Below, piece after piece: positions 1-36,109 of a stretch of DNA of 37,571 bases (within the stretch, counting starts at the first letter, position 1; each line of letters starts with the position of its first letter). The position numbers and the translations under genes were made by a program. The notes under the pieces were generated by a model. The model was not told the origin of the DNA. It was given only the letters and a program-made list of their open reading frames with translations, and searched no databases. Origin of the DNA: Janthinobacterium sp. (GTDB lineage Bacteria > Pseudomonadota > Gammaproteobacteria > Burkholderiales > Burkholderiaceae_D). The stretch lies in contig JANXSQ010000254.1 of the NCBI GenBank assembly GCA_025356595.1, forward strand, positions 1 to 37,571, written 5' to 3'.

Positions 1-140
1 CCGTTCCGGGCTACGCCCTCCACGGATTCCCCTTCTTTATTTGGTACACTTATCCACAGCTGCTACTCAAAAACGCAGCGTCCCGCCCTGGGTCAAATTT
101 GGATCGGCGCGGTGGGTCAATATTGGATCGGCGCCAACAT
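1..140. mobile_element. Probable end of an IS21-type insertion sequence (remnant)
   Basis: No complete gene is present. The stretch carries two tandem copies of a 21-bp motif that begins GGGTCAA and ends GGATCGGCGC, an arrangement seen at the ends of IS21-family elements just outside istB. The first 60 bases may be the sequence just after an istB gene lying outside the window. The element name and exact boundary cannot be fixed from this sequence. Confidence 0.35.
90..134 (+). repeat. Tandem 21-bp direct repeats
   Basis: Copies at 90-110 and 114-134 match at 19 of 21 positions. They differ only at the two bases after GGGTCAA and are separated by 3 bases. They look like the multiple terminal repeats bound by an IstA-type transposase, though their function is inferred. 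Confidence 0.6.
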
Positions 141-185
141 ACTTAGCATTTCGAAGCGATGGCCGACCGCGACCTTGATTTCAAC

Positions 186-263
186 CGCGTTCCGGAACCT
201 GGCACGCTGACGCTATTGGACCTGGGGCGGTCTGGATCGTCCAAGCGCGCTACCCGCAGGTCC
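186..263 (+). pseudogene. Decayed PEP-CTERM sorting-signal fragment
   Basis: One plus-strand frame reads RVPEPGTLTLLDLGRSG followed by a basic stretch KRATRR. This follows the plan of a PEP-CTERM tail: a VPEP motif, a short hydrophobic helix, then arginines. The helix is interrupted by charged residues (D and R), and the frame runs on past the arginine cluster for about 57 codons instead of stopping. No PEP-CTERM gene body lies upstream. It is read as the degraded 3' end of an exported-protein gene, possibly cut by the upstream insertion element. A chance match is possible because the motif is short. Confidence 0.35.
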
Positions 264-528
264 TTTTTACAAGCCGTCCGACACGCTCATTCGGCGCCCA
301 AAACCTCCACCCGCGCCCGATTGCGCAAAAGCTTGGCTTGGCTTGGCGCGATGTGCGGTGCCGTGCCGTGCCGTGAATCATCGATGCAAGCGACGGCGTC
401 CGGGTATTCCGTTTACTTCACTATGCATTGAGCAATCTCAAAATTTCCAGTGGAACTAAATAGTTAAATGATAGTTATGCTGATCTTTCCTTTCCAGCCA
501 GCGTTGTCCCCTGAATCGAGATATCCGG
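264..528. other. Gene-free stretch upstream of the ATP-grasp cluster
   Basis: I see no recognisable gene here. The part from about 430 to 480 is AT-rich compared with its surroundings and is the likely promoter zone for the following cluster, but no convincing -35/-10 pair stands out. A GAG at about 517 is only a weak ribosome-binding site for the start at 529. Confidence 0.4.
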
Positions 529-1971
529 ATGCCAAGAGAAACCACCAGCACGCAAAATTTTTTCGATGAAATGTACCTCGATGCGACGCAAGTGCGGCCG
601 CATTATCATGAGTTCGGCACTTGGCTGGCGCGCCAGCCGGCGCATGTGATTGCGCAGAAACGGGCGGAAGCCGAGCTCATTTTCCGCCGGGTGGGCATCA
701 CTTTCTCCGTCCACGGCGACAATGCGGGGCAGGAACGGCTGATCCCGTTCGACATCATTCCGCGCGTCATCGATGGCGCCGAATGGAAGCAGCTGGAAGC
801 CGGGCTGGTGCAACGCGTCACCGCCCTGAATCTGTTTTTGCACGATATCTATCACGAGCAAAGTATCTTGAAAGCGGGCCTCATCCCTGCCGAACAGATC
901 CTCCAGAACCCGCAGTATCGGCCCGCCATGCAAGGCGTCAACGTCGCCTGCGGAACGTATGCGCACATCGCGGGGATCGATATCGTACGGGCCGGCAAGG
1001 GCGAATTCTTCGTCCTGGAGGACAATCTGCGCGTGCCATCGGGCGTCTCGTACATGCTGGAAAACCGCAAGATGATGATGCGTCTGTTTCCCGAACTGTT
1101 CGCGCGCCACGCGATAGCGCCGGTCGAACATTATCCCGACCTGCTGCTCGACACCCTGCGCTCGGTGGCCCCGCACGACGCCGGCAATCCGACCGTCGTG
1201 CTGTTGACGCCGGGAATGCACAACTCGGCCTACTTTGAACACGCTTTTTTGGCGCAACAAATGGGCGTGGCCCTGGTGCAAGGCCAGGATATGTTCGTCT
1301 CGGACAACACCGTCTTCATGCGCACCACCCGCGGGCCGAAGCGGGTCGACGTGATTTATCGCCGCATCGATGACGATTTCCTCGATCCACAAGCCTTCCG
1401 CGCCGATTCCACCCTGGGCGTGCCGGGACTGCTGAAGGTGGTGCGGGCCGGCCGCGTCGGCCTGGCCAACGCCATCGGCACCGGCGTGGCCGACGATAAA
1501 TCGATCTACCCCTTCGTCCCCGACATGATTCGATTCTATCTGGCGCAGGAACCCATCCTCAACAACGTCCCGACCTACCAGTGCAGAAAGAAAGAGGACC
1601 TCGCCTACACCCTGGCGCACCTGCCCGAACTGGTGGTCAAGGAAGTGCACGGCGCCGGCGGCTACGGCATGCTGGTCGGACCGGCCGCGAGCAAAGCCGA
1701 AATCGAGGCCTTCCGCCTGCGCATTCTGGCCAAGCCGCAAGGCTATGTCGCCCAACCGACCCTGGCCCTGTCGGCTTGCCCGACCTATGTCGAATCCGGC
1801 GTGGCGCCGCGCCACATCGACCTGCGCCCCTTCGTCCTGTCCGGAAAAAGCATTTCGATCGTGCCGGGGGGGCTGACCAGGGTGGCCTTGAAGGACGGCT
1901 CGCTGGTGGTCAATTCCTCGCAGGGCGGCGGCACCAAAGATACCTGGATACTGGAGGATTCAACATGTTGA
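529..1971 (+). CDS. Circularly permuted ATP-grasp protein (DUF404/DUF407 type)
   Basis: This 480-residue protein matches stand-alone circularly permuted ATP-grasp proteins. The N-terminus has the family opening FFDEMY at residues 11-16. Further on are VVKEVHGAGGYGMLVG near 369-384 (lysine and glycine-rich nucleotide-binding loop) and, near the C-terminus, PGGLTRVA followed by SSQGGGTKDTW. Family knowledge: ATP-grasp ligases activate a carboxylate with ATP and join it to an amine or thiol, and this branch has been predicted to be a peptide or amide ligase of unknown substrate. The stop overlaps the start of the alpha-E gene by 7 bases, so the two are probably translationally coupled. The start was chosen because homologues begin shortly before FFDEMY. 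A shorter paralogous domain is fused to alpha-E at 6345-8912. Confidence 0.9.
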   Translation: MPRETTSTQNFFDEMYLDATQVRPHYHEFGTWLARQPAHVIAQKRAEAELIFRRVGITFSVHGDNAGQERLIPFDIIPRVIDGAEWKQLEAGLVQRVTALNLFLHDIYHEQSILKAGLIPAEQILQNPQYRPAMQGVNVACGTYAHIAGIDIVRAGKGEFFVLEDNLRVPSGVSYMLENRKMMMRLFPELFARHAIAPVEHYPDLLLDTLRSVAPHDAGNPTVVLLTPGMHNSAYFEHAFLAQQMGVALVQGQDMFVSDNTVFMRTTRGPKRVDVIYRRIDDDFLDPQAFRADSTLGVPGLLKVVRAGRVGLANAIGTGVADDKSIYPFVPDMIRFYLAQEPILNNVPTYQCRKKEDLAYTLAHLPELVVKEVHGAGGYGMLVGPAASKAEIEAFRLRILAKPQGYVAQPTLALSACPTYVESGVAPRHIDLRPFVLSGKSISIVPGGLTRVALKDGSLVVNSSQGGGTKDTWILEDSTC

Positions 1972-2918
1972 GCAGCACCGCGGATCACTTGTTCTGGATG
2001 GCCCGCTACACCGAACGGGCCGAAAACACGGCCCGCATGCTCGATGTCCGCATCCAGAGCGCGCTCTTGCCGCAAAGCGCCCTGGCGGCGGAGCGGGGAT
2101 GGCGCGCCCTGCTGGGCATCTCCGAACTGGAGCACGCCTTCGATGAAAAGTACGCCTCGCCCAGCCAAAAGAATGTGATCGATTTCCTGGTGCGCGACCG
2201 CGACAATCCGTCCTCGATCGCCAGTTGCCTGACCGAGGCGCGCGAGAATGCCCGCGCCGTGCGCGGCACCTTGACGACGGAAGTGTGGGAAACCGAGAAT
2301 TCGACCTGGCTCGAACTGCAGCAGCATCTCCAGGGCGACTTGCTCGAACAAAACCCCGGACGGTTTTTCGAATGGGTCAAGCATCGCTCCCACCTGTCGC
2401 GCGGCGTGACGGTGGACACCATGCTGCAAGATGAGTCGCTCAACTTCATCTGCCTTGGCACTTTCCTTGAGCGCGCCGACAACACGGCGCGCATCCTCGA
2501 TGTGAAGTTCCTGGCCGCCGATACGATAGGCGCGGGAAGCCAGCCGGAGTTCTATTACATGGCGGCCCTGCTGCGCTCCGTCTCGGCGTTCGAGATATAC
2601 CGCAAGGTGTATCGCGACGCCATCACCCCGGCGCGCGTGGCCGAACTGCTGATGCTGCAGGCGAACATGCCGCGCTCCCTGCTCGCCTGCATGGCCGCCG
2701 TGGTGGCCAACCTGAACGATGTGCGCAACCACGTCTCGCACGACACCGAGCGCTTCGCCAGGAGCTTGCACGCCGAACTGCAGCTCGCCAACATCGACGC
2801 GCTGCTCGAACAAGGCCTGCATGCCTATCTGACGCACTTCCTGTCCTCGATCGACGTGCTGGGAAGCCGCATCAGCCGCGATTTCCTGGTGCCGGCGGCG
2901 AGCATGGACGCCGCCTGA
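1965..2918 (+). CDS. Alpha-E domain protein (DUF403)
   Basis: This 317-residue, largely alpha-helical protein opens with MLSSTADHLFWMARYTERAE, the characteristic start of the alpha-E family. A second, similar segment, LGTFLERADNTARILDVK, sits near residues 164-181, so the family's repeated helical pattern is visible. Biochemical function is unknown. The family nearly always accompanies circularly permuted ATP-grasp proteins and transglutaminase-like proteins, and is thought to assist the ligase or its product. A clear GGAG sits about 8 bases before the ATG, and the ATG overlaps the upstream stop. That fixes this start rather than a longer reading of the same frame from 1581. Confidence 0.9.
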   Translation: MLSSTADHLFWMARYTERAENTARMLDVRIQSALLPQSALAAERGWRALLGISELEHAFDEKYASPSQKNVIDFLVRDRDNPSSIASCLTEARENARAVRGTLTTEVWETENSTWLELQQHLQGDLLEQNPGRFFEWVKHRSHLSRGVTVDTMLQDESLNFICLGTFLERADNTARILDVKFLAADTIGAGSQPEFYYMAALLRSVSAFEIYRKVYRDAITPARVAELLMLQANMPRSLLACMAAVVANLNDVRNHVSHDTERFARSLHAELQLANIDALLEQGLHAYLTHFLSSIDVLGSRISRDFLVPAASMDAA

Positions 2919-2989
2919 CGCCCCACCGCCCCCGTGACCGGCAGGTCGCGGGGCGCGCCACACGCCACCTCATGAAAAGGCACCATCGC

Positions 2990-5900
2990 ATGGCCATCCG
3001 TATCGCGTTGCATCATAAAACCAGTTACCAATATGACCGCCAAGTCAGCTTGTCGGCGCACGAAGTGCGTTTGCGTCCCGCGCCCCATGCGCGCACCCCG
3101 ATTCTGGCGTATTCGCTCACGGTGCTGCCGCAGCAGCATTTCATCAACTGGCAGCAAGACCCTTACGGCAATTACGTCGGCCGCTTCGTGTTCCAGGAAA
3201 AGACCGACAGGCTGGAGTTTACGGTCGACCTGGTGGCCGACATGACGGTCATCAATCCCTTCGATTTCTTCGTCGAGAAATACGCCGAGCACTTCCCCTT
3301 CAGCTACCCGGCCCAGCTGAATGCCGAACTCGGCGCCTATTTGCAGGTGGAGCCGCCGGCTCCCTTGCTGCTCGAATGGATCGCGGCGGCCCGCCGCGCC
3401 CTGTTGGCGCAGCCACTGGCGACCAACGATTTCCTGGTGGCCATCAACCAACGCCTGCAAGGCGACATCGCCTACCTGCTCAGAATGGAGCCCGGCGTGC
3501 AGACGCCCGAGGAAACCCTGGAAAAACGTTCGGGCTCCTGTCGCGACAGCGCCTGGCTGTTGGCGCAAATCCTGCGCGGCATGGGTTTGGCGGCCCGCTT
3601 CGTGTCGGGCTATTTGATCCAGTTGCGCGCCGATCAGGCTTCGCTCGACGGCCCCAGCGGCGCGGCCGAAGACTTCACCGACCTGCACGCCTGGACCGAG
3701 GTGTATATCCCCGGCGCGGGCTGGATCGGCCTCGACCCCACCTCGGGCATGCTGGCCGGCGAAGGCCATATTCCGCTGGCCTGCACGGCCCTGCCCTCCT
3801 CGGCGGCGGCGGTGAGCGGCTTCACCGACAAGGCCGAAGTCACCTTCTTCCACGAAATGACGCTCACCCGCATTCACGAAGACCCGCGCGTCACCAAGCC
3901 CTACACGGAGGAGGAATGGGACAGGATCGACGCGCTCGGCCACCAGGTCGACCTGGACCTGAAGCAGCAGGATGTGCGCCTGACCCAGGGCGGCGAACCG
4001 ACCTTCGTCTCGCTCGACGACCACGACGGGGCGGAATGGAACACCGAGGCGCACGGCGAGAAAAAGCGCGCCCTGGCGGGACAGCTCCTGGGGCGGCTGA
4101 AAAATCATTTCGCGCCCGGCGGCATGCTCCATTACGGCCAGGGAAAATGGTATCCGGGCGAGCCCATGCCGCGCTGGGCCCTGAACATCTTTTGGCGCGT
4201 CGACGGGCAACCGATGTGGCTCGACGCGACCTTGTTTTCGGATGAAGAGGAGAGCGAAGCCTACGGCCACGAGCAGGCCGCCCGTTTTTCCGCCGAATTG
4301 ACGAGGGCGCTCGGCTTGCCGGCCAACAGCCAGATCGCCGCGTATGAGGACGTCATGCTGCACGCCCAGCACGAGCAAGGCATGCCCGCCAACCTGGACC
4401 CGCTGGTCGCCAACCTGGACGCGCCGGACCAGCGCCGCCGTCTGGCGCGCCTGCTGGACCGGGGGCTGGGCCAAGTGGTGGGCTACGTTTTGCCGCTCGC
4501 GGCGAAGGAGCATGACCCGGCCATCGCGCTGGGCACCGCCTGGCGCACCTCGGCCTGGCCGTTCAAGCGCGAGCATCTGTATCTGATCGAGGGCGACTCG
4601 CCGATGGGGCTGCGCCTGCCGCTGGAGGCGCTGCCGTGGGAGCTGCCCGAGGAAAAGGCGGCCGACTTCGATGTCGATCCCTTCGCGCCGCGCGCCGTGC
4701 TGGCCGGCGCCAGAAAGGAAAAGCGCGGCACGCTCAAATTGGCGGGCGACGCGGCGGCGCCGCGCAAAGTGATCCATACCGCGCTGTGCGTCCAGGTGCG
4801 GGACGGGCGCCTGCATGTTTTCATGCCGCCGCTCAAGCGCGTCGAGGATTACCTGGCGCTGGTCACGGCGGTGGAAGGCAGCGCCGCCAAACTGAAGCTG
4901 AAGCTGTGGATCGAAGGCTACCCGCCGCCGCGCGATCCGCGCATCAAGCTGCTCAGCGTCACGCCCGACCCCGGCGTGATCGAGGTCAACATCCATCCGG
5001 CGGCCAGTTGGGACGAGCTGGTGTACAACATGAGCACCCTGTACCAGGAGGCGCGCGCCACCCGCCTGGGGACGGAAAAATTCATGCTCGACGGCCGCCA
5101 CACGGGCACCGGCGGCGGCAACCACGCCACGCTGGGCGGCGCCAGCGCGGAGGACAGCCCGATGCTGCGGCGCCCCGATCTGCTGAAGAGCCTGATCACC
5201 TACTGGCAGAACCATCCGGCCCTGTCCTATCTGTTCTCGGGCACCTTCATCGGCCCGACCAGCCAGGCGCCGCGGGTGGACGAGGCGCGCGACGACAATC
5301 TGTATGAACTGGCGATCGCCTTCCAGCAGATGGATCGGGTCTTGCCCACCCTGCAGCCGGGCGACAAGCCCTGGATGGTCGACCGCCTGCTGCGCAACCT
5401 GTTGGTGGACTTGACGGGAAACACGCACCGCTCGGAATTCTCCATCGACAAACTGTATTCCCCCGACGGCCCCACCGGCCGGCTGGGCCTGGTCGAATTC
5501 CGCGCCTTCGAAATGCCGCCGCACGAGCGCATGAGTTTGTTGCAAATGCTCTTGCTGCGCGCCCTGGTGGCGCGTTTCTGGCGCCAGCCCTACCAGGCCC
5601 AACTGGTGCACTGGGGCACCGCCCTGCACGACCGCTGGATGCTGCCGCATTTCGTCGCCCAGGATATCCGCGACGTCGCCAGGGATTTGCGCGCCGCCGG
5701 TTATGCCTTCGAGGACAAGTGGTTCGACCCTTTCATCGAATTCCGCTTCCCCCGTTTCGGCACCGTCGTCTACGAAGGCGTGGAGATGGAGTTGCGCCAG
5801 GCGATAGAGCCGTGGAACGTGCTGGGCGATGAAGTGCGCGCGGGCGGCACGGCGCGCTATGTCGATTCCTCGGTGGAGCGCCTGCAATTGCTGGTGCGCG

Positions 5901-6292
5901 GGCTCAGCGACGGGCGCCACCTGGTCGCCTGCAACGGCCGGGCGCTGCCCCTGCATCCGACCGGCGTGCCCGGCGAATACGTGGCCGGTGTGCGCTTTCG
6001 CGCCTGGTGTCCCTGGTCGGCCCTGCATCCGACCATCAAGGTGCAGGCCCCCCTGACCTTCGACCTGGTCGACACCTGGAGCGGACGGGCCATCGGTGGT
6101 TGCACCTATCATGTGGCGCACCCGGGCGGGCGCAGCGAAACGGGCGCGCCGGTGAACGCGAATGCGGCGGAGGCGCGCCGCCTGGCGCGCTTCTGGCCGC
6201 ACGGGCATACGCCGGGCCCCATGCGCGTGGACAAGGAGGCGCTCAATCCGCGTTTTCCGATGACGCTCGACTTGCGCTGGCAGCCGTTTTGA
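2990..6292 (+). CDS. Transglutaminase-like/DUF2126 two-part protein
   Basis: This 1100-residue protein has an N-terminal bacterial transglutaminase-like part and a long C-terminal DUF2126 part. The N-terminal part runs from [16 protein letters not shown], the usual beta-strand entry. It carries a cysteine-protease-like triad at Cys184 (GSCRDSAW), His233 (DLHAW) and Asp249 (GLDP). The C-terminal part begins near residue 300, has the conserved [11 protein letters not shown] segment, and is annotated in Pfam as a putative amidoligase. Hydrolase and ligase modules are thus joined in one chain. The start at 2990 is preferred over 2972 because homologues begin here and an AAAGG lies about 10 bases upstream. 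It follows the ATP-grasp and alpha-E genes on the same strand. Substrate unknown; no signal peptide is visible. Confidence 0.88.
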
Positions 6293-6344
6293 TCGGACCT
6301 TGGCGGTCCACCGTCCACAAAAGAAAAGAAGAGTCCACGAGCCA

Positions 6345-8912
6345 ATGCCAAGTCAACTACTCGCCAACTATCTGGCCGCGCCGGATGGTTTCAATGAAAT
6401 GCTGGACGCGTCGAACCTGCCGCGGGCGCACTGGCGCGCCATGCTCGCCAGCCTGGAGGGGGAAGCGCCCGACGCGATGCGCCAGCGCTACGAAATGGTG
6501 CAGCGCCAGGTGCGCGAAAACGGCGTCACCTACAATGTCTCCGCCGACGCCGAGGGCACGCAACGTCCGTGGGCCTTGAATGTGCTGCCGCTGATCCTGC
6601 CGCACGAGGAGTGGAGCGGCATCGAGGCGGCGGTGATCCAGCGCGCCACGCTGCTGAACCGCATCCTGACCGACGTGTATGGCGAACAGAAAATCCTCGG
6701 GCAGGGGCTGTTGCCGCCCGCATTGATCCACGGCCATGCCGGTTTCCTGCGCCCGTCCCATGGCATGGCGCACCGCGACGGCATCGCCCTGCATTTTTTG
6801 GCGCTCGACCTGGCGCGCGCGGCCGATGGGCGCTGGTGGGTGGTGGCCGACCGGACGCAGGCGCCGTCGGGCGCCGGCTATGCGCTGGAAAACCGCGCCA
6901 TCATCGCGCCCACCTTCCCGGACCTGCTGCGCGAGCTGAAGGTCCGCCCGCTGGCGGGGTTTTTCCGCACCATGCGCGACGCTCTGGTCCAATGGGGACG
7001 CGCCTGCGCCGCCCACGGCGACGGCGGCGTGCCGCTGCGCGACAGCGAGCAGCCGCTGATCGTGCTGCTCACGCCAGGGCCGCGCAACGAAACCTATTAC
7101 GAACAGGCGTATCTGGCGCGTTACCTGGGCTTGCCGCTGGTCGAGGGCGGCGACCTCACGGTGCGCAAGGGCATGGTCTGGCTGAAGACCCTGTCCGGCC
7201 TGCAGAGGGTGCATGTGATACTGCGCCGCGTCGAGGATGACTTTTGCGATCCACTCGAGTTGCACGCATCGACGCTGGGCGTGGCGGGACTGACGCAGGC
7301 GGCCAGGCGCGGCAATGTGCTGATCGCCAACAGCCTGGGCGCCAGCCTGTTGGAGTCGGGCGCCCTGCTGGGCTTCCTGCCGGCGCTGTGCGAACGCCTG
7401 CTCGGGGAACCGTTGAGGATGCCTTCGGTCGCCACCTGGTGGTGCGGCGAACCGGCCGCGCTGGAGGAGGTGATCGACAAGCTGGACCAGTTGGTGATCA
7501 AGCCCAGCTTTTCGCAACTGCGGCAAATCTCCGTCTTTGGACAGGACCTGAAGGGCGCGCCGCGCGCCGCCTTCATCGACAAGCTGCGCGCCGACCCGAA
7601 CAACTACGTGGCCCAGGAACTGGTGCGCCTTTCGCAGGCGCCGGTATGGAAGGCGGGCCCGCCCGGCGGTTTGCACGCGCGAGCCGTCGGCCTGCGGGTG
7701 TTCGCCTGCGCCGGGCCGCATGGCTATGTGGTGATGCCGGGCGGGCTGACGCGGGTCGCGACGGGGCCCGATGCGCGCGTGCTGACGATGCAGATGGGCG
7801 GCGGCAGCAAGGATACCTGGGTACAGGCCAGCGCGCAGGTCGAGCCGCACCGAGTCTCGCAACACAGCACCCGCAGCGCCGACCTGGTGCGCGACGACAG
7901 CAATTTGTCGAGCCGCGTGGCGGAAAACCTGCTGTGGTTTGGCCGCAACGTCGAACGCTGCGACAACATCGCCCGGCTCCTGCGGGTGGCCTTGAATTTC
8001 CTGTTCGATGTCCGCTTCGCGCAGCGCAGCGCCGAATGGCCGGCCGTCGAGGCATTGTGCGTCTGGTTCCATTTGATCGACAGCAAAAAACCGCGCAAAG
8101 CGCCACTCCCGACCCAGTCGCAGAGCCAAGGCGGGGCCGGCGCGCCCGCGGCCCTCCGCGGCGACGCGCAAATCGAGGCGGCCTTGTTGTTGGCGGTGGT
8201 GTCGCCCGACGTCGCCGGATTGGCGCGACAAAAACAACAGATGTATCGCGTCGCCTGTCAACTGTATGAACGCTTCTCGGTCGACAACTGGCGCGCGCTG
8301 ACCCGCATGGTGGAACGGGTGGCGGACCCCGGACAACTGCCGTCCCAGTCGGAGGCGATGGTGATCCTCGACGACGCGGCCGCGTCCTTGATGACGATGG
8401 CCGGCTTCGCCCTGGACGGCATGACCCGCGATATCGGCTGGCGCTTCCTGTCGCTGGGCCGGCGCCTGGAGCGGCTGCAATTCCAGTGCGTGGTCCTGCG
8501 GCACGCGCTGGACATGGATGCCGACGGCAATCTGGACTGGCTGCTGGAGCTCTCCGACAGCATCGTTACCTATCGGGCGCGCTACCGCGCCCAGCCCGAA
8601 TGGTTGCCGGTGCTCGACCTGCTGCTGCTCGACGAAAGCAATCCGCGCTCCATCCTGTTTCAGCTTGACGGCATCCTCGGCGCCCTGCGGAAAATAGCGC
8701 TGACCTACGGCGCCTGCGGCGAGGAGCTGCTGGCGCCGCTCAAAGATGAATTGCTGGCGCTGGCGCCGGAGGCCGACTTGTATGGCGGCAATGCGCGCCT
8801 GATCGCCTTGCTGCGCCGCATCAGAGTCGCCAGCGAGGCGCTGTCGGAGCGGATCAGCGTGCAGTTTTTCAGTCATTCCGACCATCACAAGGATAGGACC
8901 CAGACACCATGA
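6345..8912 (+). CDS. Fused circularly permuted ATP-grasp/alpha-E protein
   Basis: This 855-residue protein combines in one chain the two families encoded separately at 529 and 1965. Residues 1 to about 500 are the ATP-grasp half. It has FNEMLDASNLPRAHW near the N-terminus, VIKPSFSQL in the nucleotide-binding region, and PGGLTRVA followed by GGGSKDTW near 465-490. From about residue 522 (SSRVAENLLWFGRNVERCDN) to the end is the alpha-E half. In the lysine loop the HGAGGYGM of the upstream paralogue is replaced by a serine-containing SFSQL, so substrate or activity may differ. The ATG at 6345 was chosen over the in-frame 6300 start because MPSQLLANYLA matches the family opening and a purine-rich AAGAAGAG lies upstream. 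The 3' end overlaps the next gene by 4 bases (ATGA). Confidence 0.88.
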   Translation: MPSQLLANYLAAPDGFNEMLDASNLPRAHWRAMLASLEGEAPDAMRQRYEMVQRQVRENGVTYNVSADAEGTQRPWALNVLPLILPHEEWSGIEAAVIQRATLLNRILTDVYGEQKILGQGLLPPALIHGHAGFLRPSHGMAHRDGIALHFLALDLARAADGRWWVVADRTQAPSGAGYALENRAIIAPTFPDLLRELKVRPLAGFFRTMRDALVQWGRACAAHGDGGVPLRDSEQPLIVLLTPGPRNETYYEQAYLARYLGLPLVEGGDLTVRKGMVWLKTLSGLQRVHVILRRVEDDFCDPLELHASTLGVAGLTQAARRGNVLIANSLGASLLESGALLGFLPALCERLLGEPLRMPSVATWWCGEPAALEEVIDKLDQLVIKPSFSQLRQISVFGQDLKGAPRAAFIDKLRADPNNYVAQELVRLSQAPVWKAGPPGGLHARAVGLRVFACAGPHGYVVMPGGLTRVATGPDARVLTMQMGGGSKDTWVQASAQVEPHRVSQHSTRSADLVRDDSNLSSRVAENLLWFGRNVERCDNIARLLRVALNFLFDVRFAQRSAEWPAVEALCVWFHLIDSKKPRKAPLPTQSQSQGGAGAPAALRGDAQIEAALLLAVVSPDVAGLARQKQQMYRVACQLYERFSVDNWRALTRMVERVADPGQLPSQSEAMVILDDAAASLMTMAGFALDGMTRDIGWRFLSLGRRLERLQFQCVVLRHALDMDADGNLDWLLELSDSIVTYRARYRAQPEWLPVLDLLLLDESNPRSILFQLDGILGALRKIALTYGACGEELLAPLKDELLALAPEADLYGGNARLIALLRRIRVASEALSERISVQFFSHSDHHKDRTQTP

Positions 8913-9844
8913 GCGACTTGTCGACGAACCTGGCCGCGTGCGGGCGTTACCGTATCGACCACGAAACCCATTACACCTACCAAAGCATGGTCACGCTGTC
9001 GCAGCAATACCTGCACATGACGCCGCGCTGCTTTTCCTATCAGTACGTCGAGTCGCACCGGATCTGCTTCGACCCGGCCGGGGAGGATGGCGCCGAGGGC
9101 ACCGATTACTTCGGCAACAGCACCCGCCACGTCGCGCTGACCGTGCCGCACAAGACGCTGCTGGCGCGCGCCGAATCGAGCGTCGCGCTGAGCGCCCGGC
9201 ACACGCTGGCGCAGATCAAGGGCACGCCGCCGTGGGAAGAGCTGCGCGAAACGATGCGGCATGACAAAAGCGCCGCCACGCTGGAGGCCTGCCGCTATTT
9301 GTACGCCTCGCCCCATGTCCGTTGCAGCGCCGAGCTGGCGGACTACGCGCGCATCAGCTACACCAAGGCCCGCCCGCAGCTCGACGCCGCGCTCGAGTTG
9401 ACGCAGCGCATCTTCGAGGATTTCGAATTCGACGACAAGGCCACCGATATATCCACCCCGCTGGAGCAGGTGCTCAAAGGCCGGCGCGGGGTCTGCCAGG
9501 ATTTTGCCCAACTGATGATAGGCTGCCTGCGCAGTCTCGGCCTGCCGGCGCGCTACACCAGCGGCTACATCCTGACGCACCCGCCGGCCGGACAGTCGCG
9601 CCTGGTCGGCGCCGATGCCTCCCACGCCTGGGTGTCGGTGTATTGCCCGGAGCTTGGCTGGATCGATTTCGACCCCACCAACCGCTGCCTGGTGCAGTGC
9701 GAGCACATCACGCTCGGTTGGGGGCGGGATTTCAGCGACGTCACCCCGATGCGCGGCATCGTCCTCGGCGGCGGCAAGCACAAACTCGATGTGCGCGTCA
9801 CGGTCACGCCGCTGGCCTTGCCGGCCGAAGGGGCGGCGGCATGA
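8909..9844 (+). CDS. Transglutaminase-like cysteine protease family protein
   Basis: This 311-residue protein shows the bacterial transglutaminase N-terminal beta region (YRIDHETHYTYQSMV, residues 14-28) followed by the catalytic core. The triad is visible as Cys196 (GVCQDFAQL), His239 (DASHAWVSVY) and Asp255 (WIDFDPTN). Members of this family act as peptidases, or form or break isopeptide bonds. Next to ATP-grasp ligases they are thought to trim or cleave the product. Its ATG overlaps the stop of the fused ATP-grasp/alpha-E gene, so translation is probably coupled. It lacks the long DUF2126 extension of the paralogue at 2990. No export signal is evident. Confidence 0.88.
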   Translation: MSDLSTNLAACGRYRIDHETHYTYQSMVTLSQQYLHMTPRCFSYQYVESHRICFDPAGEDGAEGTDYFGNSTRHVALTVPHKTLLARAESSVALSARHTLAQIKGTPPWEELRETMRHDKSAATLEACRYLYASPHVRCSAELADYARISYTKARPQLDAALELTQRIFEDFEFDDKATDISTPLEQVLKGRRGVCQDFAQLMIGCLRSLGLPARYTSGYILTHPPAGQSRLVGADASHAWVSVYCPELGWIDFDPTNRCLVQCEHITLGWGRDFSDVTPMRGIVLGGGKHKLDVRVTVTPLALPAEGAAA

Positions 9845-9974
9845 CGCTTGCCTGATACGGACGAGCATATTTTTACCCGACAAGGCCAATTTCCCACACC
9901 CGAAGCGACGCGTCGCCGGACGACGACGCGCCCGGGGCCGCCACCGCGGCAATCCCACAGACAGGAAAACCACC

Positions 9975-10892
9975 ATGCAACAACTTTCTCCAAACGGGCA
10001 ACAAGCAATTGACGAGATCGCCAGGCGCCACGGATTCGGCGTCGATGCGGTCTTGAGCATGCTTGAATCCGTCATCAACGGCAATGGCAGCATGGCGCAA
10101 TTCAACCATCCCGAATTTTCCGGCTCGGGCCAGTGGATGAGGGGCGGCATGACCATGGTCTCCGACATGTTCAACAACAACCTCAAAGGCCGCGTCGATG
10201 GACTGTGTTCGGAATTGGCGCGCCTGCTTGCAAATCAGCCGGATTTGATCAGGAGCGGCAGTTTTCAGTCGCAAAGCCAGGGCGGCCAGCATCAGAACAG
10301 CCAGGTCGGCCAACAAAGCCACAACGGCGGCGGCGCCCAGATGGCGGCGGCGAGCCTGTTCGTGCCGCCCGCGGCCGGCGCGGCGCATGACTGGTGGGGC
10401 CCGGACTTGCGTTGGCCCAACAGCACGGGCGCCCAAAACGGCATGCGCTACGCCTACTTCGCGCAGGCCCGCCGCCTGGCCATCGACTTGCATGGCAGGG
10501 TGACCATCTATGACACGCTGCAGCACCAGATCGGCGGCTTCTCGCAGCAGCAATCCGCCGGCGCCACGCTCAACTTTACCAGCCAATGCGGCCTGGTCGA
10601 CGTGAGCCGTCTGCCCATCATCTCAATCGACGGCGTGGCACCGACGGCCGGCAACACAAGCGGATTTGGCGATGCGCAGGGCGCCACGGCAAGCAACATG
10701 GCGACTGGATACGCGCCGGTTTCCGGCGCCGCCACGCCGCCCCTGGCCGCGCAGCAGCGCTTCGCCGGCCCGGGCGCGGGAGCCGAAGAGGTCTTCGCCA
10801 TGATCGAGAAACTGGCCGACCTGAGAAACCGGGAACTCCTCAGCGCGGAGGAATTCGTCACGAAGAAAACCGAGTTGTTGGCGCGGCTATAG
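9975..10892 (+). CDS. SHOCT-domain protein of the ATP-grasp cluster
   Basis: This 305-residue protein ends in a SHOCT domain (short C-terminal domain), seen as [18 protein letters not shown] followed by TKKTELL in the last 30 residues. The N-terminal 90 residues are helical ([19 protein letters not shown]). A Gln/Ser/Gly-rich linker spans about 96-118. The middle part contains [12 protein letters not shown] and a stretch around [16 protein letters not shown]. Function is unknown; SHOCT domains often sit at the end of proteins acting in oligomeric or membrane-linked assemblies. The start is supported by a GACAGGAAA ribosome-binding site. Its place between two transglutaminase genes suggests it is a partner or substrate of that system, which is an inference from position only. 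Confidence 0.75.
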
Positions 10893-10956
10893 CGGCGGCG
10901 CCACGCTCAAACCCCGCGGCGCGAGTCCGCAACCGCGATTTAACGAGGAATTTCCC

Positions 10957-11754
10957 ATGTGGTTACGTACGCATTGCATGCTGGCCTTCAGCGTGCCCAG
11001 TCCCACGCCCTTTATCCTGATGCTGCGTCCGCGCAGCGGTGCCCAGCAATGGGTGGCGCGTGAAAGCTACACCCTGAAGCCGAGCGTGCCGGTGGTGGAA
11101 TTCACCGATGTTTACGGCAACTTGTGCCAGCGCCTGATCGCGCCGCCCGGCGAATTTTTGATCCGCACGTCGGCCGACGTGATGACCACCGACGCGATCG
11201 ACGTGGCGCCGGGCGCCCCGTTCGACGAAGTGCAGAATCTGCCCGACTCGGTGCTGACCTATCTATTGCCCAGCCGCTATTGCGAAACCGAGCAGTTCTT
11301 CGTCATGGCCAAGGAGATCGTGCAAGACAGCGCGCCGGGATACGATCAGGTCGCCTGCATCGTCGCTTGGATTCAGCGTTCCGTGACATTCAATCCCGCC
11401 TCCGGCCACGCCTACATGTCCGCTGTCGAAGTGAACCAGCGGCGCGAGGGCGTCTGCCGCGATCTGGCCCATTTGGGCATCGCCGTATGCCGCGCCCTGT
11501 GCATTCCGGCGCGCATGGTGGTGGGGTATCTGCATGGACTGGAACCAATGGACTTGCACGCATGGTTCGAGGCCTATGTGGGCGGCCGCTGGTACACCTT
11601 CGACGCGACACAGCGGGAACCGCGCGGCGGGCGCGTGACTGTCGCGTATGGACACGACGCCGCCAACGTGGCGATCTTCAGTCAATTCGGTCCCTCGCTG
11701 CGCCCGACGGTGATGCACGTCGCCGTAGAACTGCTGGAGGCCGCGCCCGATTGA
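10957..11754 (+). CDS. Third transglutaminase-like protein
   Basis: This 265-residue protein has the transglutaminase-like triad at Cys167 ([10 protein letters not shown]), His201 ([10 protein letters not shown]) and Asp216 (YTFDATQ). The N-terminal 80 residues form the beta-rich entry domain, with [16 protein letters not shown] in place of the longer N-terminus of the other two paralogues. Members of this shorter branch are annotated as transglutaminase family proteins of unknown substrate. A GAGGAA precedes the ATG at the right distance. It is the last gene of the cluster. The next gene, catR, is convergent and starts a different functional block. With 2990 and 8909 this makes three intact catalytic triads within 9 kb. 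Confidence 0.85.
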
Positions 11755-11988: not shown

Positions 11989-12903
11989 TTACAAGGTCTC
12001 GCGCACATGCGCGATACCCGCCGCCGTATAAATCTCGTAGATCATCGCCAACATGTTCTGCAACTCCTCCGACTTGTCCATCTTACGCACGCTGAACATC
12101 ACCGGCGACACGGCGTGGTGGTCGGCCACGCGGCGATAGACCACGTCGTCACGCTTCATCCCCTGCACGCTTTCCGGCACGATGGCCACGCCCTGTCCGG
12201 CCGCCACCAGACCGATGGCGATCTGCAACTCGCGCACCTCCAGCACCTGTTGCGGCGTCAGCGCGCGCTCGCTGAAGGCCGCCAGCACCTGATCGGCGAA
12301 ACTGGGGCGCGGCGCCTTCGGATAAATGATCAGCGTTTCCGCCTGCAGATCCACCAGCCTGATCGCGTCGCTCGAGGCGCTGCGGGGATGGCCGCTGGGC
12401 AGCGCCACCACCAGGCGCTCCTCGCGCAGGACGATGCGGCGGATGTTGGGATCCTCGCTCTTCACGCGTCCGAAGCCGACATCGATCACGCCGTCTTTCA
12501 GGGCGCGGATCTGCTCCATGGTGGTCAGCTCGTGGAAGCTCACCGCGACCGTCGTGTAACGCTCGCGGAAACGCCGCACGATTTCCGGCAGCAGGCCGTA
12601 CAGCGTGGACGCCACGAAGCCGATCGACAGCGTGCGCTCGATCTTGCCCACCCTTTGCGTCATGGTCTTCAGTTCGGCGGCCTTGGCCAGCAAATCCTGC
12701 GCGTGGATGTGGAAGAAGCGCCCCGCCTCGGTCAGGCGCAGCGGCCGGCTGGACTTTTCAATCAGGACCACGCCCAGTTCTTCCTCCAGTTGCTGGATCT
12801 GGCGGCTGAGCGGCGGCTGGGCGATAAACAGCCGCTTGGCCGCACGCGTGAAATTCTTCTCGTCGGCGACGGCGACGAAGTAACGCAAATGACGCAATTC
12901 CAT
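11989..12903 (-). CDS. catR: LysR-type regulator of catechol/benzoate degradation
   Basis: This 304-residue protein has a winged helix-turn-helix at residues 1-60 (MELRHLRYFVAVADEKNFTR, then LFIAQPPLSRQIQQLEEELG) and a periplasmic-binding-protein-like effector domain from about 90. It closely resembles CatR/CatM/BenM, which respond to cis,cis-muconate (BenM also to benzoate) and activate divergent cat or ben operons. It is transcribed away from catB. The ATG at 12903 was preferred over 12909 because AAAGG lies 7 bases before it but only 1 base before the other. The operator half-sites at 12908-12934 cover this ribosome-binding site, so the regulator probably represses itself. It is the only LysR gene in the window and may serve both the cat and ben functions. 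Confidence 0.88.
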   Translation of the reverse strand: MELRHLRYFVAVADEKNFTRAAKRLFIAQPPLSRQIQQLEEELGVVLIEKSSRPLRLTEAGRFFHIHAQDLLAKAAELKTMTQRVGKIERTLSIGFVASTLYGLLPEIVRRFRERYTTVAVSFHELTTMEQIRALKDGVIDVGFGRVKSEDPNIRRIVLREERLVVALPSGHPRSASSDAIRLVDLQAETLIIYPKAPRPSFADQVLAAFSERALTPQQVLEVRELQIAIGLVAAGQGVAIVPESVQGMKRDDVVYRRVADHHAVSPVMFSVRKMDKSEELQNMLAMIYEIYTAAGIAHVRETL

Positions 12904-12907
12904 ACTC

Positions 12908-12934
12908 ATACCTTTCGGGTATCCAAACCATACC
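12908..12934. promoter_or_regulatory. CatR/BenM-type operator, three half-sites
   Basis: ATACC (12908-12912), GGTAT (12918-12922) and ATACC (12930-12934) form two interleaved dyads with spacers of 5 and 7 bases. The first dyad fits the ATAC-N7-GTAT site known for BenM and CatM. It covers the catR ribosome-binding site and lies about 84-98 bases upstream of catB. Binding by CatR is inferred. Confidence 0.65.
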
Positions 12935-13005
12935 AACTCAGTGTTGGACTGGCATATCTGGGTGGCATATCGTGTTCCTACCCGAACCAATTATACAAAT
13001 TAAAT
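12935..13005 (+). promoter_or_regulatory. catB promoter region
   Basis: Two copies of GGCATATC (12951-12958 and 12964-12971) lie 13 bases apart between the operator and catB. A TATACA at 12992-12997 could be a -10 box, which would place the transcript start only a few bases before the catB ATG. No clear -35 is seen, as is usual at LysR-activated promoters, and no Shine-Dalgarno sequence precedes the ATG. Confidence 0.35.
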
Positions 13006-14115
13006 ATGATTCAGCATATACAGGTCATTCTGGCGGACGTGCCGACGATACGTCCCCACAAGCTCTCCGTGGCCACCATGCATACCCAGACCCTGGTGCT
13101 GGTGCGCATACTCTGCGCCGACGGCATCGAAGGCTGGGGCGAAGCGACCACGATCGGCGGCCTCAATTACGGCGGCGAGAGTCCTGAAAGCATCAAGGCC
13201 AACATCGACGCCCACATCGCGCCGCTGCTGCTCGGCATGAAGGCCGGCGAGGTGGCGATGGCGATGGCGAAACTGCGCAAGACCATCCAGGGCAACCGTT
13301 TCGCCAAGTGCGCGATCGAAACCGCCCTGCTCGACGCGCAGGCGCGCCGGCTGGGCGTGCCGCTGAGCGAATTGCTGGGCGGCCGGGTGCGCGAGACTTT
13401 GCCGGTGGCCTGGACCCTGGCCAGCGGCGACACGGCCCAGGATATCGCCGAGGCCGAGCACATGCTTGAGTTGCGCCGCCACCGCATCTTCAAACTCAAG
13501 ATCGGCGCCCGGGCGGTGGATGAGGACGTGCGCCACGTGCTGGCCATCAAGAAGGCGCTGGGCGACGCCGTCAGCGTGCGGGTCGACGTCAACCAGGCCT
13601 GGAGCGAACTCGAGGCGATGCGCGGCATCGCCGCGCTGGAGGCCGGCGGCATCGACCTGATCGAACAGCCCGTCCGTGGCGGCAACGTGGCCGCGATGGC
13701 CCGCCTGGCCGAGCGTTTCTCGGTGGCGCTGATGGCCGACGAGGCGCTGCACGGCCCGCTTGACGCCTACGCGCTGGCCAAGGCCGCCGCCGCCGACGTG
13801 TTCGCCGTCAAGATCACCCAGTCGGGCGGACTGCTGCCGGCCGCCCAGGTGGCGGTGGTGGCGCAGTTGGCCGGCATCGACCTATACGGCGGCACGATGC
13901 TGGAAGGCAGCGTCGGCACGGCGGCGTCGGCCCAGTTGTTTTCCACTTTTGGTGATCTGGCCTTCGGCACGGAGTTGTTCGGCCCGCTGCTGCTGACGCA
14001 GGAAGTGCTGCGCGAGCCGCTGGTGTACCGCGACTTCATGCTGGAGCTACCCCAGGGACCGGGCTTGGGCGTCGACATCGACATGGACAGACTCAAACAT
14101 TTGCAACGTCAATAA
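13006..14115 (+). CDS. catB: Muconate cycloisomerase
   Basis: This 369-residue enolase-superfamily enzyme converts cis,cis-muconate to (+)-muconolactone, the second step of the catechol branch. The catalytic K-x-K is seen at Lys163/Lys165 (FKLKIGA). Metal ligands are Asp194 (VDVNQAW), Glu220 (IEQPV) and Asp245 (MADEA). Lys269 (VFAVKITQSGG) and Glu323 (FGTELFGP) complete the active site by comparison with the Pseudomonas enzyme. Length fits the family (about 370). The ATG at 13006 starts MIQHIQVILADVPTIRPHKL, the conserved N-terminus, although the same frame is open far upstream through the antisense of catR. It lies 15 bases before catC and is divergent from catR. There is no visible ribosome-binding site. 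Confidence 0.95.
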   Translation: MIQHIQVILADVPTIRPHKLSVATMHTQTLVLVRILCADGIEGWGEATTIGGLNYGGESPESIKANIDAHIAPLLLGMKAGEVAMAMAKLRKTIQGNRFAKCAIETALLDAQARRLGVPLSELLGGRVRETLPVAWTLASGDTAQDIAEAEHMLELRRHRIFKLKIGARAVDEDVRHVLAIKKALGDAVSVRVDVNQAWSELEAMRGIAALEAGGIDLIEQPVRGGNVAAMARLAERFSVALMADEALHGPLDAYALAKAAAADVFAVKITQSGGLLPAAQVAVVAQLAGIDLYGGTMLEGSVGTAASAQLFSTFGDLAFGTELFGPLLLTQEVLREPLVYRDFMLELPQGPGLGVDIDMDRLKHLQRQ

Positions 14116-14130
14116 ATCCAGGAGAGCAGC

Positions 14131-14421
14131 ATGTTATTTCACGTACGAATGGACGTCGAACTCCCGCCGGCGATGCCGGAAGCGCAGGCCGGCGCATTGA
14201 AGCAGCGCGAGCGCGAACTGGCGCAAGCCTTGCAGCGCAGCGGCAAATGGCGCCACTTGTGGCGCATCGCCGGGCAGTACGCCAACGTCAGCGTGTTCGA
14301 CGTCGCCAGCGTGGACGAACTGCATGCCTTGCTGACCTCGCTGCCGCTGTTCCCCTACATGCGCATCGCCGTGATGCCGCTGTGCCGCCACCCGTCCTCG
14401 GCGCGCGAGGACGACGCCTGA
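14131..14421 (+). CDS. catC: Muconolactone delta-isomerase
   Basis: This 96-residue protein matches the full length of CatC, the small decameric isomerase that turns muconolactone into 3-oxoadipate enol-lactone. The family opening MLFHVRMDVELP is present, as are the central WRHLWRIAGQYANVSVFDV-like segment and the C-terminal LPLFPYMRIAVMPLCRHPS. AGGAGAG lies 5-6 bases before the ATG. It sits between catB and catA in the same direction with short gaps and belongs to the same operon. Confidence 0.95.
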   Translation: MLFHVRMDVELPPAMPEAQAGALKQRERELAQALQRSGKWRHLWRIAGQYANVSVFDVASVDELHALLTSLPLFPYMRIAVMPLCRHPSSAREDDA

Positions 14422-14485
14422 GCTTCATCTATAAGCAAGCCCGAACACCAAGCCAACACCCCCACCCACACCGAAGGAGACTAGC

Positions 14486-15406
14486 ATGACCCACAATGAA
14501 ATCGATACCCTGGCGAAGACTTGGATCATTGACACTGCAACCGGCCCCGTCAACCCGCGCGTACAGCAAATCGTGCTGCGCCTGGTGAGCGATCTGTGCA
14601 AGAGCATCGAAGACCTCGACATCCAGCCCAGCGAGTTCTGGAAGGGCCTGGAATATCTGAGCGAGGCGGGCGGGCGCAATGAGCTGGGTCTGCTGGCGCC
14701 GGGCCTGGGCCTGGAGCGTTTCCTCGACATCCGCGCCGACGAAGCGGAAGCGCGCGCCGGCCTGGCCGGCGGCACGCCGCGCACCATCGAAGGCCCGTTG
14801 TACGTGGCCGGCGCGCCGGTCAGCCAGGGCTACGCCCGCCTCGACGACGGCAGCGAGAGCGCCGGCGCCGAGGTGCTGTTCATGCAAGGCACGGTGCGCG
14901 ATCAGCGCGGCCGGCCGCTGCCGGGCGCGCAGGTCGAGGTATGGCATTGCAATCTGCTGGGCAATTACTCCTTCTTCGACAAGAGCCAGTCGCACTTCAA
15001 CCTGCGCCGCACCATCATCGCCGACGCCGAGGGGCGCTATCAATTGCGCAGCATCCTGCCGGTCGGTTACTCCTGTCCGCCGGACGGCACCACCCAGCGC
15101 CTGCTGGACCAGTTGGGCCGCCACGGCCACCGTCCGGCCCACATCCACTTCTTCATCAGCGCCGCCGGCCAACGCAAACTGACCACCCAGATCAACATCG
15201 ACGGCGACGCCTACCTGTGGGACGACTTCGCCTTCGCCAGCCGCGAAGGCCTGGTGCCCGCCGTGCGCCGGGTGACATCCGAGCAGGCCATCGCGGCCCG
15301 CGGTCTGCAGGCGCCCTTCGCCGAGATCGATTTCGACTTCAGCCTGCATGCCGACATCCCCACCGCGCCGGCCAGCGTGGTCGAGCGCAGCCGCGCCGGC
15401 GCCTGA
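14486..15406 (+). CDS. catA: Catechol 1,2-dioxygenase
   Basis: This 306-residue intradiol dioxygenase opens the ring of catechol to cis,cis-muconate using non-haem Fe(III). The four iron ligands are visible: Tyr161 (LLGNYSFFD), Tyr195 ([11 protein letters not shown]), His219 and His221 (RPAHIHFF). The N-terminal helical dimer/lipid-binding domain covers residues 1-100, followed by the beta-sandwich core. The length matches CatA (about 300-311). AAGGAGA stands 7 bases before the ATG. It is followed by benA after 11 bases, so the ring-cleavage enzyme and the benzoate dioxygenase that supplies its substrate are made from one message. Confidence 0.95.
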
Positions 15407-15417
15407 GGAGTCCGATC

Positions 15418-16788
15418 ATGATTCCCATCCATCCCGTGAAGCAGCCCGGCCCGGGCAGCCTGGACGATTTCCTGGTCGAGGACCACGAGCGCGGCGACTA
15501 CCGCCTGCACCGCAGCGCCTTCACCGACCCGGCCCTGTTCGAACTGGAGATGAAGCATATCTTCGAGGGCAACTGGATCTACCTGGCCCACGAAAGCCAG
15601 CTCGCCAACAACAACGACTACTACAGCACGCACATCGGCCGCCAGCCGGTGTTCATCGCGCGCAACCGCCAGGGCGAGCTGAACGCCTTCATCAACGCCT
15701 GCACCCACCGTGGCGCCCAGCTGTGCCGCAACAAGCGCGGCAACAAGGCCACCTACACCTGCCCCTTCCACGGCTGGACCTTCAACAACAGCGGCAAGCT
15801 GCTCAAGGTGAAGGACCCGGAGGGCGCCGGCTATCCGGACTGCTTCAACAAGGAGGGTTCGCACGACTTGAAGAAAGTGGCACGTTTTGAAAACTACAAG
15901 GGCTTCCTGTTCGGCAGCCTGAACCCGGACGTGCTGCCGCTGGAGGAATTCCTCGGCGAGGCCGGCAAGATCATCGACATGATCGTCAACCAGTCGGCCG
16001 ACGGGCTGGAGGTGCTGCGCGGCGCGTCCACCTACACCTTCGACGGCAACTGGAAGCTGCAGGCCGAAAACGGCGCCGACGGCTACCACGTCTCGGCGGT
16101 GCACTGGAACTACGCGGCCACCACCAACCGCCGCAAGGACCAGGGCGAAACGCGCACCGACACCATCCGCGCCATGGATGCGGGCGGCTGGGGCAAGCAA
16201 GGCGGCGGTTTCTACGCCTTCAAGCACGGCCACCTGCTGCTGTGGACCCAATGGGCCAATCCCCAGGATCGCCCCAACTATGGCCGCCGCGAGGAATTCG
16301 CGCAGCAGTTCGGCGCCGCCACGGCCGACTGGATGATCGAGCGCTCGCGCAATCTGTGCCTGTATCCGAACGTCTACCTGATGGACCAGTTCGGGTCGCA
16401 GATCCGCCTGCTGCGCCCGATCTCGGTCGACAAGACCGAGGTGACCATCTACTGCATCGCGCCCAAGGGAGAGCCCGACGAAGCGCGCGCGCGGCGGATT
16501 CGCCAGTATGAGGATTTTTTCAACGTCAGCGGCATGGCCACGCCGGACGATCTGGAAGAGTTCCGCGCCTGCCAGCAAGGCTACGCGGCCAGCGCGCTGG
16601 AATGGAACGACATGTGCCGCGGCGCGCGCCACTGGGTGGACGGCGCCGACGGCGCGGCGCGCGAGATCGGCCTGCGGCCGCTCATGAGCGGAGTCAAGAC
16701 CGAGGACGAGGGGCTGTACACCATCCAGCACCGCTATTGGCTGGAAGTGATGAAGCAGGCCGTCGCCAAGGAAGGGGAAGCGGCATGA
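15418..16788 (+). CDS. benA: Benzoate 1,2-dioxygenase, large (alpha) subunit
   Basis: This 456-residue Rieske oxygenase alpha subunit hydroxylates benzoate to its cis-1,2-dihydrodiol. The Rieske [2Fe-2S] ligands are Cys95 and His97 (ACTHRGA), then Cys115 and His118 (CPFHGW). The mononuclear iron site is His224 and His229 with bridging-region Asp221 ([11 protein letters not shown]). The sequence and the following benB, benC and benD genes identify it as BenA rather than a toluate or anthranilate enzyme, though a broader substrate range cannot be excluded. The ATG at 15418 has GAGGAG 8 bases upstream, overlapping the end of catA. The longer open frame running back into catA is not the gene. Confidence 0.93.
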
Positions 16789-17276: not shown

Positions 17277-17302
17277 GCGTGGTCTTACGATTCAGGAGAT
17301 AG

Positions 17303-19107
<1,805 letters not shown>

Positions 19108-19134
19108 AGCGACAATCCAAAGGGAGAACAAAGC

Positions 19135-35261: not shown

Positions 35262-35280
35262 AGAACGTGTTCACAATCTT
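35262..35280 (+). repeat. Left terminal inverted repeat of the IS5-family element
   Basis: AGAACGTGTTCACAATCTT matches the inverse of 36091-36109 at 17 of 19 positions. Its outer edge lies inside the Tn3 transposase frame. The last one or two outer bases may belong to the target. Confidence 0.8.
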
Positions 35281-35304
35281 GCCGCATGGCCGGATAATGA
35301 CGGA

Positions 35305-36100: not shown

Positions 36101-36109
36101 ACACGCTCT
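36091..36109 (-). repeat. Right terminal inverted repeat of the IS5-family element
   Basis: Read on the minus strand it is AGAGCGTGTTCACGATCTT, 17 of 19 bases like the left end. Its outermost base is shared with the stop codon of the convergent histidine-kinase gene. Confidence 0.8.

Follow-up and report, generated by a model that had tools for sequence, protein, structure and literature searches.

What would a bacterium join, and what would it cut, with two ATP-grasp ligases and three transglutaminase-like enzymes encoded side by side? The question is raised by a run of seven genes at positions 529 to 11,754 of contig JANXSQ010000254.1 of a Janthinobacterium sp. (assembly GCA_025356595.1), a stretch of 37,571 nucleotides referred to here as the window. 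The Pfam scan and the coordinates of the open reading frames (ORFs) place all seven genes on the plus strand (Table 1). The cluster is a real member, here without the proteasome-like NTN hydrolase Anbu, of a widespread kind of system that had been predicted before. With moderate confidence, we read it as one self-contained amide-bond ligase/hydrolase system built from a core and an extension. We refer to ATPgA and its alpha-E partner as set A, and to TG-DUF2126, the fused ATPgB-aE and TG5 as set B; in gene orders, A, D and B denote ATPgA, TG-DUF2126 and ATPgB-aE.

Table 1. Features of the cluster and its upstream flank, in window coordinates (CP, circularly permuted; E, expect value).
Feature	Position	Strand	Evidence and remarks
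ATPgA, set A ligase, CP ATP-grasp, 480 aa	529..1971	+	Pfam CP_ATPgrasp_2 E 1.4e-167; PDB 3n6x match E 2.6e-223
Set A alpha-E protein, 317 aa	1965..2918	+	Pfam Alpha-E 3.8e-92; start overlaps ATPgA
TG-DUF2126 (D), transglutaminase-like + DUF2126	2972..6292	+	Bact_transglu_N + Transglut_core 4.6e-17 + DUF2126 E 0; start 2972 or 2990
ATPgB-aE, set B ligase, CP ATP-grasp fused to alpha-E	6300..8912	+	CP_ATPgrasp_2 1.1e-143, Alpha-E 3.4e-54; start TTG 6300 or ATG 6345
TG5, transglutaminase-like	8909..9844	+	Transglut_core 4.1e-22; 4 bp overlap with ATPgB-aE
SHOCT-type protein, accessory	9975..10892	+	weak C-terminal SHOCT match, below Pfam cut-off
TG7, transglutaminase-like, own family	10957..11754	+	Transglut_core 4.9e-22; separate clade
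IS21-adjacent-like DNA	42..148	.	blastn match; upstream of cluster

The Pfam scan confirmed the inventory given by an earlier, sequence-only reading of this DNA (seven same-strand genes with two CP ATP-grasps, two alpha-E units and one DUF2126), with the correction that the second ATP-grasp and the second alpha-E form a single fused protein. Alignments likewise bore out its three transglutaminase-like proteins with intact Cys, His and Asp: C184, H233 and D249 of TG-DUF2126 (with 2990 taken as the start) do not vary in any of 60 aligned sequences, and each of the three residues is invariant in 29 TG5 and 10 TG7 sequences. E336, H704 and R838 are among the invariant residues of DUF2126. Two starts were revised, placing that of alpha-E at 1965, inside the end of the ATPgA gene, and that of the SHOCT gene at 9975. 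By ORF coordinates, the genes are separated in order by an overlap, 53-71 bp, 7-52 bp, an overlap, 130 bp and 64 bp, which would fit a single transcription unit. The SHOCT assignment stands in part, as the match is present but weak, with E values of 0.00079 for the protein and 0.00025 for its trimmed form that both fall short of the Pfam cut-off. The SHOCT gene was rejected as a core component of the system because it is rarely linked, adjoining the cluster in L065 and L087 and lying apart from it in genomes G054, G077, G096 and G112.

The sequence-only reading had called the cluster duplicated, which the ATP-grasps do not support. The two in the window share 33% identity, and in a tree of 57 rows (29 A and 28 B), made like the transglutaminase tree by a quick method, a branch with full support divides the two types. 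Because the ATP-grasps fall in separate clades and the same gene order occurs in other phyla, we reject a local duplication as the origin of the two sets. Together with TGx of the Anbu operon, the window's three transglutaminases form four families; their four labels need 3 changes on the tree, which is the minimum, and the TG5 label by itself needs 2. TG7, earlier counted as a mere third protease, is a distinct conserved family, and is probably old as well, since relatives at 53-71% identity occur in loci of Methylococcales, Zetaproteobacteria, Ectothiorhodospiraceae and Desulfuromonadales.

What these proteins do is suggested by their folds. The predicted model of DUF2126 has a glutamine-synthetase (GS) fold and that of ATP-grasp B a glutathione/glutathionylspermidine-synthetase (GSS/GspS) fold. 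Along with the papain-like triads, these GSS/GspS-like and GS-like folds support the making and cutting of amide bonds as the best family-level reading of the predicted enzymes, and at that level uphold the formation and trimming of amide or peptide bonds proposed from the sequence. In the available part of the published account, the ATP-grasp of Y. bercovieri releases phosphate from ATP.

The relation between the two sets emerges from their distribution among 299 Pseudomonadota genomes (phylum sample) and 145 genomes of the window's family (family sample). In the phylum sample, 92 genomes hold DUF2126 and 174 a CP-ATP-grasp, and all 92 hold both, a result to be expected in part, since set B itself contains a CP-ATP-grasp. 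Types A and B were assigned in these surveys by score rather than by tree, with reference values of 414-527 bits for ten B-type proteins from other lineages and 517-571 bits for ten A-type proteins, ranges that touch. Among the matches listed, 79 of the 92 DUF2126 genomes have a best CP-ATP-grasp match of E 2.5e-162 or better and at least 540 bits, which is clear A type. Twelve more, outside the matches listed, have a best match of E 3.2e-159 or better and are probable A type, leaving G180 (E 1.2e-157, where either type is possible) as the sole ambiguous case. At least two CP-ATP-grasps were found in 87 of 92 genomes with DUF2126 versus 11 of the 82 that have a CP-ATP-grasp but no DUF2126, again partly by construction. 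The family sample gave a similar distribution: DUF2126 occurs in 56 of 145 genomes and a CP-ATP-grasp in 105, an A-range score in 54 of the 56 (the exceptions, G064 and G087, are fragmented assemblies), and at least two CP-ATP-grasps in 53 of 56 genomes with DUF2126 versus 4 of 49 without. These counts and their very small Fisher p-values ignore phylogeny, the p-values are also partly built in, and the family test presumes that the 54 genera with DUF2126 lie among the 105 with a CP-ATP-grasp. Because CP-ATP-grasps often occur without DUF2126, and DUF2126 rarely if ever without an A-type ATP-grasp, set B appears to be nested within set A, as an optional extension of a core. The two-stage pathway suggested earlier fits this nesting. 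Independent occurrence of the sets, which the sequence-only reading took as the mark of genes without a functional link, is found in one direction (CP-ATP-grasp without DUF2126 in 82 of 174) but rarely in the reverse (at most 1 of the 92 DUF2126 genomes of the phylum sample and 2 of the 56 of the family sample).

Gene order was compared in loci around DUF2126, comprising 36 from the window's family and 80 named loci that lean to close relatives because they are the best-matching ones; neighbours were assigned by tblastn, so that their counts are lower bounds. The order A-alphaE-D-B-TG5 on one strand appears in 8 of the 36 family loci and 10 of the 80 named loci, and is also found in Planctomycetota and Verrucomicrobia; an eleventh named locus (L120) has this order with an additional transglutaminase inside. 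A divergent layout with A-alphaE pointing away from D-B-TG5 is also frequent, TG5 follows ATPgB-aE in many relatives, and D is also found with A alone or B alone. Among the 53 named and 32 family loci with at least 6 kb available on both sides, A lies nearby in 31 and 21, B in 42 and 28, and neither in 4 and 2, respectively.

Published work on relatives connects these genes with nitrogen supply. In the available passage on Burkholderia cenocepacia H111, genes I35_5080-83, for DUF404/407, DUF403, a transglutaminase-like protein and a large transglutaminase-like protein, are under sigma54 and NtrC control in nitrogen deprivation, and have table values of -8.2, -9.4, -9.4 and -6.0 in the ntrC mutant, in columns whose heads fall outside that passage (PMC5491218). 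Excerpts of other studies report that P. putida PP2685-2687 are up under nitrogen limitation (PMC3325844), that PP_2685 and PP_2688 are up on nitrate (PMC8050072) and that marine metagenomes show a correlation of these domains with urea metabolism (PMC3597751); for various other conditions, the excerpt available reports no change (PMC5666114). The large transglutaminase-like protein of I35_5080-83 is presumably TG-DUF2126.

Because of these nitrogen data, a sigma54 scan was made of the relatives. It used a consensus and weights that we take to describe such sites. A sigma54-like element precedes 31 of 65 leading ATPgA genes, against 1.3 expected by shuffling and 4 on the reverse strand, and 31 of 85 leading DUF2126 genes, against 1.9 and 4; among 313 internal genes it precedes 12, where about 7.7 are expected. 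The internal genes divide into ATPgB (1/81), alpha-E (0/72), TG5 (5/87), DUF2126 (2/28), Anbu (2/26), ATPgA (2/5), TG7 (0/8) and TGx (0/6), and the other leading genes into ATPgB (0/10), Anbu (0/9), TG7 (0/7) and TG5 (1/1). With one count per 85% cluster, the element remains before 27 of 47 leading ATPgA and 20 of 58 leading DUF2126 genes, mostly outside the window's family. As a separate observation, the element GGTAYGAATCATGCT, with the GG-N10-GC spacing of a variant sigma54-like site, lies upstream of TG-DUF2126 in L005, L041, L061, L064, L069 and L089; the relatives that carry it have DUF2126 as operon leader, and the element is conserved among them.

The sequence-only reading was silent on this link to nitrogen limitation, as it was on the missing Anbu. 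With Anbu from a genus relative as query, a search of the window's genome (G000) gave 0 matches at E 1e-20, and all 7 other genus members sampled have Anbu. An Anbu elsewhere in the genome was also sought by family and by protein search, which gave only HslV, the sole PF00227 match, immediately before HslU. TGx was not found either: its six matches in G000, 28-40% identical, coincide with TG5, TG-DUF2126, TG7 and their copies. In the family sample, Anbu is missing from 14 of 105 CP-ATP-grasp genomes, 13 of which have DUF2126, so that absence stands at 13 of 56 genomes with DUF2126 versus 1 of 49 without. In an ATPgA tree of 62 rows, from which rows with stops or broken frames (including G125 and G045) were dropped, the window's ATPgA belongs to a 9-row group that is adjacent to D and shows no Anbu at its loci, with support of 94/87, just below the 95 mark. 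Two genus siblings belong to an 11-row group in which every locus shows Anbu. The rows L047 and L060, labelled withAnbu_noD in this tree, do have DUF2126, as two split matches.

TG7 may be connected with this absence. Its orthologues (at least 71% identity) occur in 9 of 145 family genomes, and Anbu is absent from 5 of these 9 versus 9 of 96 other CP-ATP-grasp genomes. The operon of G125 ends in TG7 (A-alphaE-D-B-TG5-TG7), as does the window's (A-alphaE-D-B-TG5-SHOCT-TG7), and five loci (L047, L053, L060, L066 and L067) end in Anbu instead (A-alphaE-D-B-TG5-Anbu); in four of these, 1.5-1.7 kb lies between TG5 and Anbu, so that the positions are alike but not identical. From these parallel operon ends, the Anbu-less ATPgA group and the enrichment of Anbu absence in TG7 genomes comes a tentative possibility, which we hold to be somewhat improbable, that this lineage dropped Anbu from a nitrogen-starvation ligase system and that the papain-like TG7 took over its hydrolytic step. 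A strict replacement of Anbu by TG7 is unsupported, and because 4 of the 9 TG7 genomes retain Anbu and 9 of the 14 Anbu-less genomes lack TG7, replacement would be partial at most.

A working scheme can be drawn from these results. In the core, the set A ATP-grasp would activate a carboxylate and join it to an amine, with alpha-E as a helical partner. In the extension, the GS-fold DUF2126 and the second ATP-grasp/alpha-E would extend the core product by a second amide bond or use a second substrate. The three papain-like transglutaminases would cut or rearrange those bonds, with TG7 at the operon end, where Anbu sits in some relatives, and the system would most likely be used under nitrogen limitation. 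We infer the order of steps (A then B) from co-occurrence and gene order only, and the substrate and product are placed on the same conditional footing. As to the product, our guess favours a small non-ribosomal peptide or amide over a protein tag, because no intergenic gap exceeds 130 bp, which would hardly accommodate a gene for a precursor or tag, and because the cluster contains no unfoldase gene.

In favour of one ligase/hydrolase system with core and extension we count the domains, the folds, co-occurrence, gene order, the ATP-grasp/alpha-E fusion in set B, the nitrogen and sigma54 data, and phosphate release by an ATP-grasp. Several results weigh against it. CP-ATP-grasps lack DUF2126 in 82 of 174 genomes, and the sets therefore need not share a substrate. 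The GS matches of DUF2126 come only at E about 0.1 from Foldseek alone, and the likeness described is that of the whole fold. The nitrogen data are from other species and concern mostly set A, and among non-redundant leading loci of the window's family a sigma54-like element precedes only 4 of 16 ATPgA and 1 of 16 DUF2126 genes. Upstream of ATPgA in the window the best candidate scores 12/18 within 520 bp and there is none within 250 bp; because the window itself lacks a sigma54-like element there, we can only infer nitrogen control of this copy, by analogy with its relatives. No neighbour names a pathway: no family exceeds 4 members among 113 flanking ORFs of 67 named loci, a scan that took 113 of 114 called ORFs (omitting L126:7191-8501:- and taking none of 700 aa or more) after 13 near-duplicate loci were dropped from the 80. 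In the available part of its description, Y. bercovieri Anbu has neither peptidase activity nor specific interaction with the other operon products. Finally, although these families are common in bacteria, no established product or substrate was found for them, and the literature search returned no paper naming DUF2126 and none naming two of the four COG numbers.

Among other explanations, we consider protein tagging of the pupylation kind unlikely. Here the ligases would tag proteins with a peptide or with amino acids, and the tag would be taken off, or the tagged proteins degraded, by the transglutaminases, with Anbu where present; the cluster encodes neither a tag nor an unfoldase, no neighbour recurs, Anbu is absent here, and the inactivity of Y. 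bercovieri Anbu on peptides and its lack of interaction with other operon products, in the source as available, speak against it too. Nitrogen salvage, in which the three transglutaminase-like enzymes would serve chiefly as amidases, releasing ammonia or amino acids from amides that the cell has stored or scavenged, while the ligases load or recycle a carrier, would suit the intact triads and, as far as the published excerpts go, the expression of relatives under nitrogen limitation and the correlation with urea-metabolism domains in marine metagenomes. We nevertheless rate it as quite improbable, as two ATP-consuming ligases would be costly for a purely catabolic role and no transporter or ammonia-handling family is prominent in the top 25 neighbour families. 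Two unrelated systems with separate jobs and a merely historical adjacency would account for the CP-ATP-grasps without DUF2126 and for loci in which the sets are divergent, about 3 kb apart or, on one contig of G072, about 337 kb apart, but this is improbable to a like degree given the rarity of DUF2126 without sign of an A-type ATP-grasp, the gene order kept in several phyla and the sigma54-like elements that precede leading genes in the two sets alike.

Upstream of the cluster, positions 42-148 resemble DNA that, by the annotation of one record, lies between an IS21-like istB (ISPst3 family) and the gene after it, and blastn matched them to 724 plasmid records, with 80% identity in the best match. 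Window positions 1-528 may thus be rearranged, with possible loss of the native promoter. On the downstream side, a LysR regulator is encoded on the opposite strand, and after it come muconate cycloisomerase and catechol dioxygenase genes, none of them visibly connected with the cluster; they belong to a run of aromatic-degradation genes at 11989-19923 that also includes a Rieske oxygenase, a ferredoxin/FAD/NAD reductase and an alpha/beta hydrolase. A DUF4158/DUF4096 (transposase-like) protein is encoded at 34072-35670. Short stretches at about 35250-35398 and 35970-36123 recur at 99-100% identity on further contigs of this genome, in many cases at the ends of those contigs, as expected for insertion-sequence ends that broke the assembly. 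In the flanks of the named loci, a putative zinc metallopeptidase family, PF15887, is represented in 2 of the 113 ORFs, and in two Polaromonas loci (L087 17599-19486 and L088 7048-7845) one or two diverged transglutaminase-like genes follow the cluster.

Further copies of parts of the cluster, at about 82% DNA identity, are present on contigs C148 (locus L005) and C151 (locus L006) of the same genome. C148 carries TG7-alphaE-ATPgA divergent from TG-DUF2126, and with it a second TG7 copy; C151 carries TG-DUF2126/ATPgB-aE/TG5. Because their overlapping DUF2126 parts differ (82%), these are two further copies or contaminants. Recent paralogy is a candidate reading of them; both contigs are short, with G+C of 0.614 and 0.686 against 0.641, and the contamination of the genome is given as 2.45%. 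A search of the genome that scored 40 of 1104 first-look candidates gave no comparable duplicate for 19.9 kb of window DNA outside the cluster, apart from a 77% match over 1.2 kb and from short repeats and weaker matches.

These results make the function of the cluster more testable, as set B seems to presuppose set A and DUF2126 models as a GS fold. From the regulation seen in relatives, nitrogen limitation suggests itself as the condition for seeking the product, and genomes with the same core and Anbu, TG7, both or neither provide natural contrasts for finding the target of the hydrolase. Among characterized enzymes, ATP-grasp B has the fold type of glutathionylspermidine synthetase/amidase and eukaryote-type glutathione synthetase, but it is only about 10-13% identical to them, and has alpha-E and no amidase domain. 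DUF2126 differs from glutamine synthetase, gamma-glutamylmethylamide synthetase and Dop in its identity of about 6-14% and its N-terminal transglutaminase fusion, the likeness coming from the model. The peptide-ligase system reportedly predicted by Iyer in 2009 is said to combine a CP ATP-grasp, a GS-like ligase, an NTN peptidase and an alpha helical domain. The window shares the CP ATP-grasp with an alpha helical domain and the GS-like DUF2126, but lacks the NTN peptidase and has two ATP-grasps and three transglutaminases. The rlo and rim operons of Pseudomonas also tie ATP-grasp enzymes to peptidases, and rlo includes a transglutaminase; in the available text, however, the peptidases are aspartic, the rlo transglutaminase is an inactive membrane protein, and alpha-E is not mentioned. 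The closest in layout is the Anbu operon, which in its available description consists of ATP-grasp, alpha-E, transglutaminase and Anbu. Set A resembles it in its CP ATP-grasp, with the match to 3n6x, and adjacent alpha-E, and two genus relatives (L057 and L078) carry ATPgA-alphaE-TGx-Anbu. The genome of the window, in contrast, yielded neither Anbu nor TGx, and has TG7, set B and a SHOCT-type gene.

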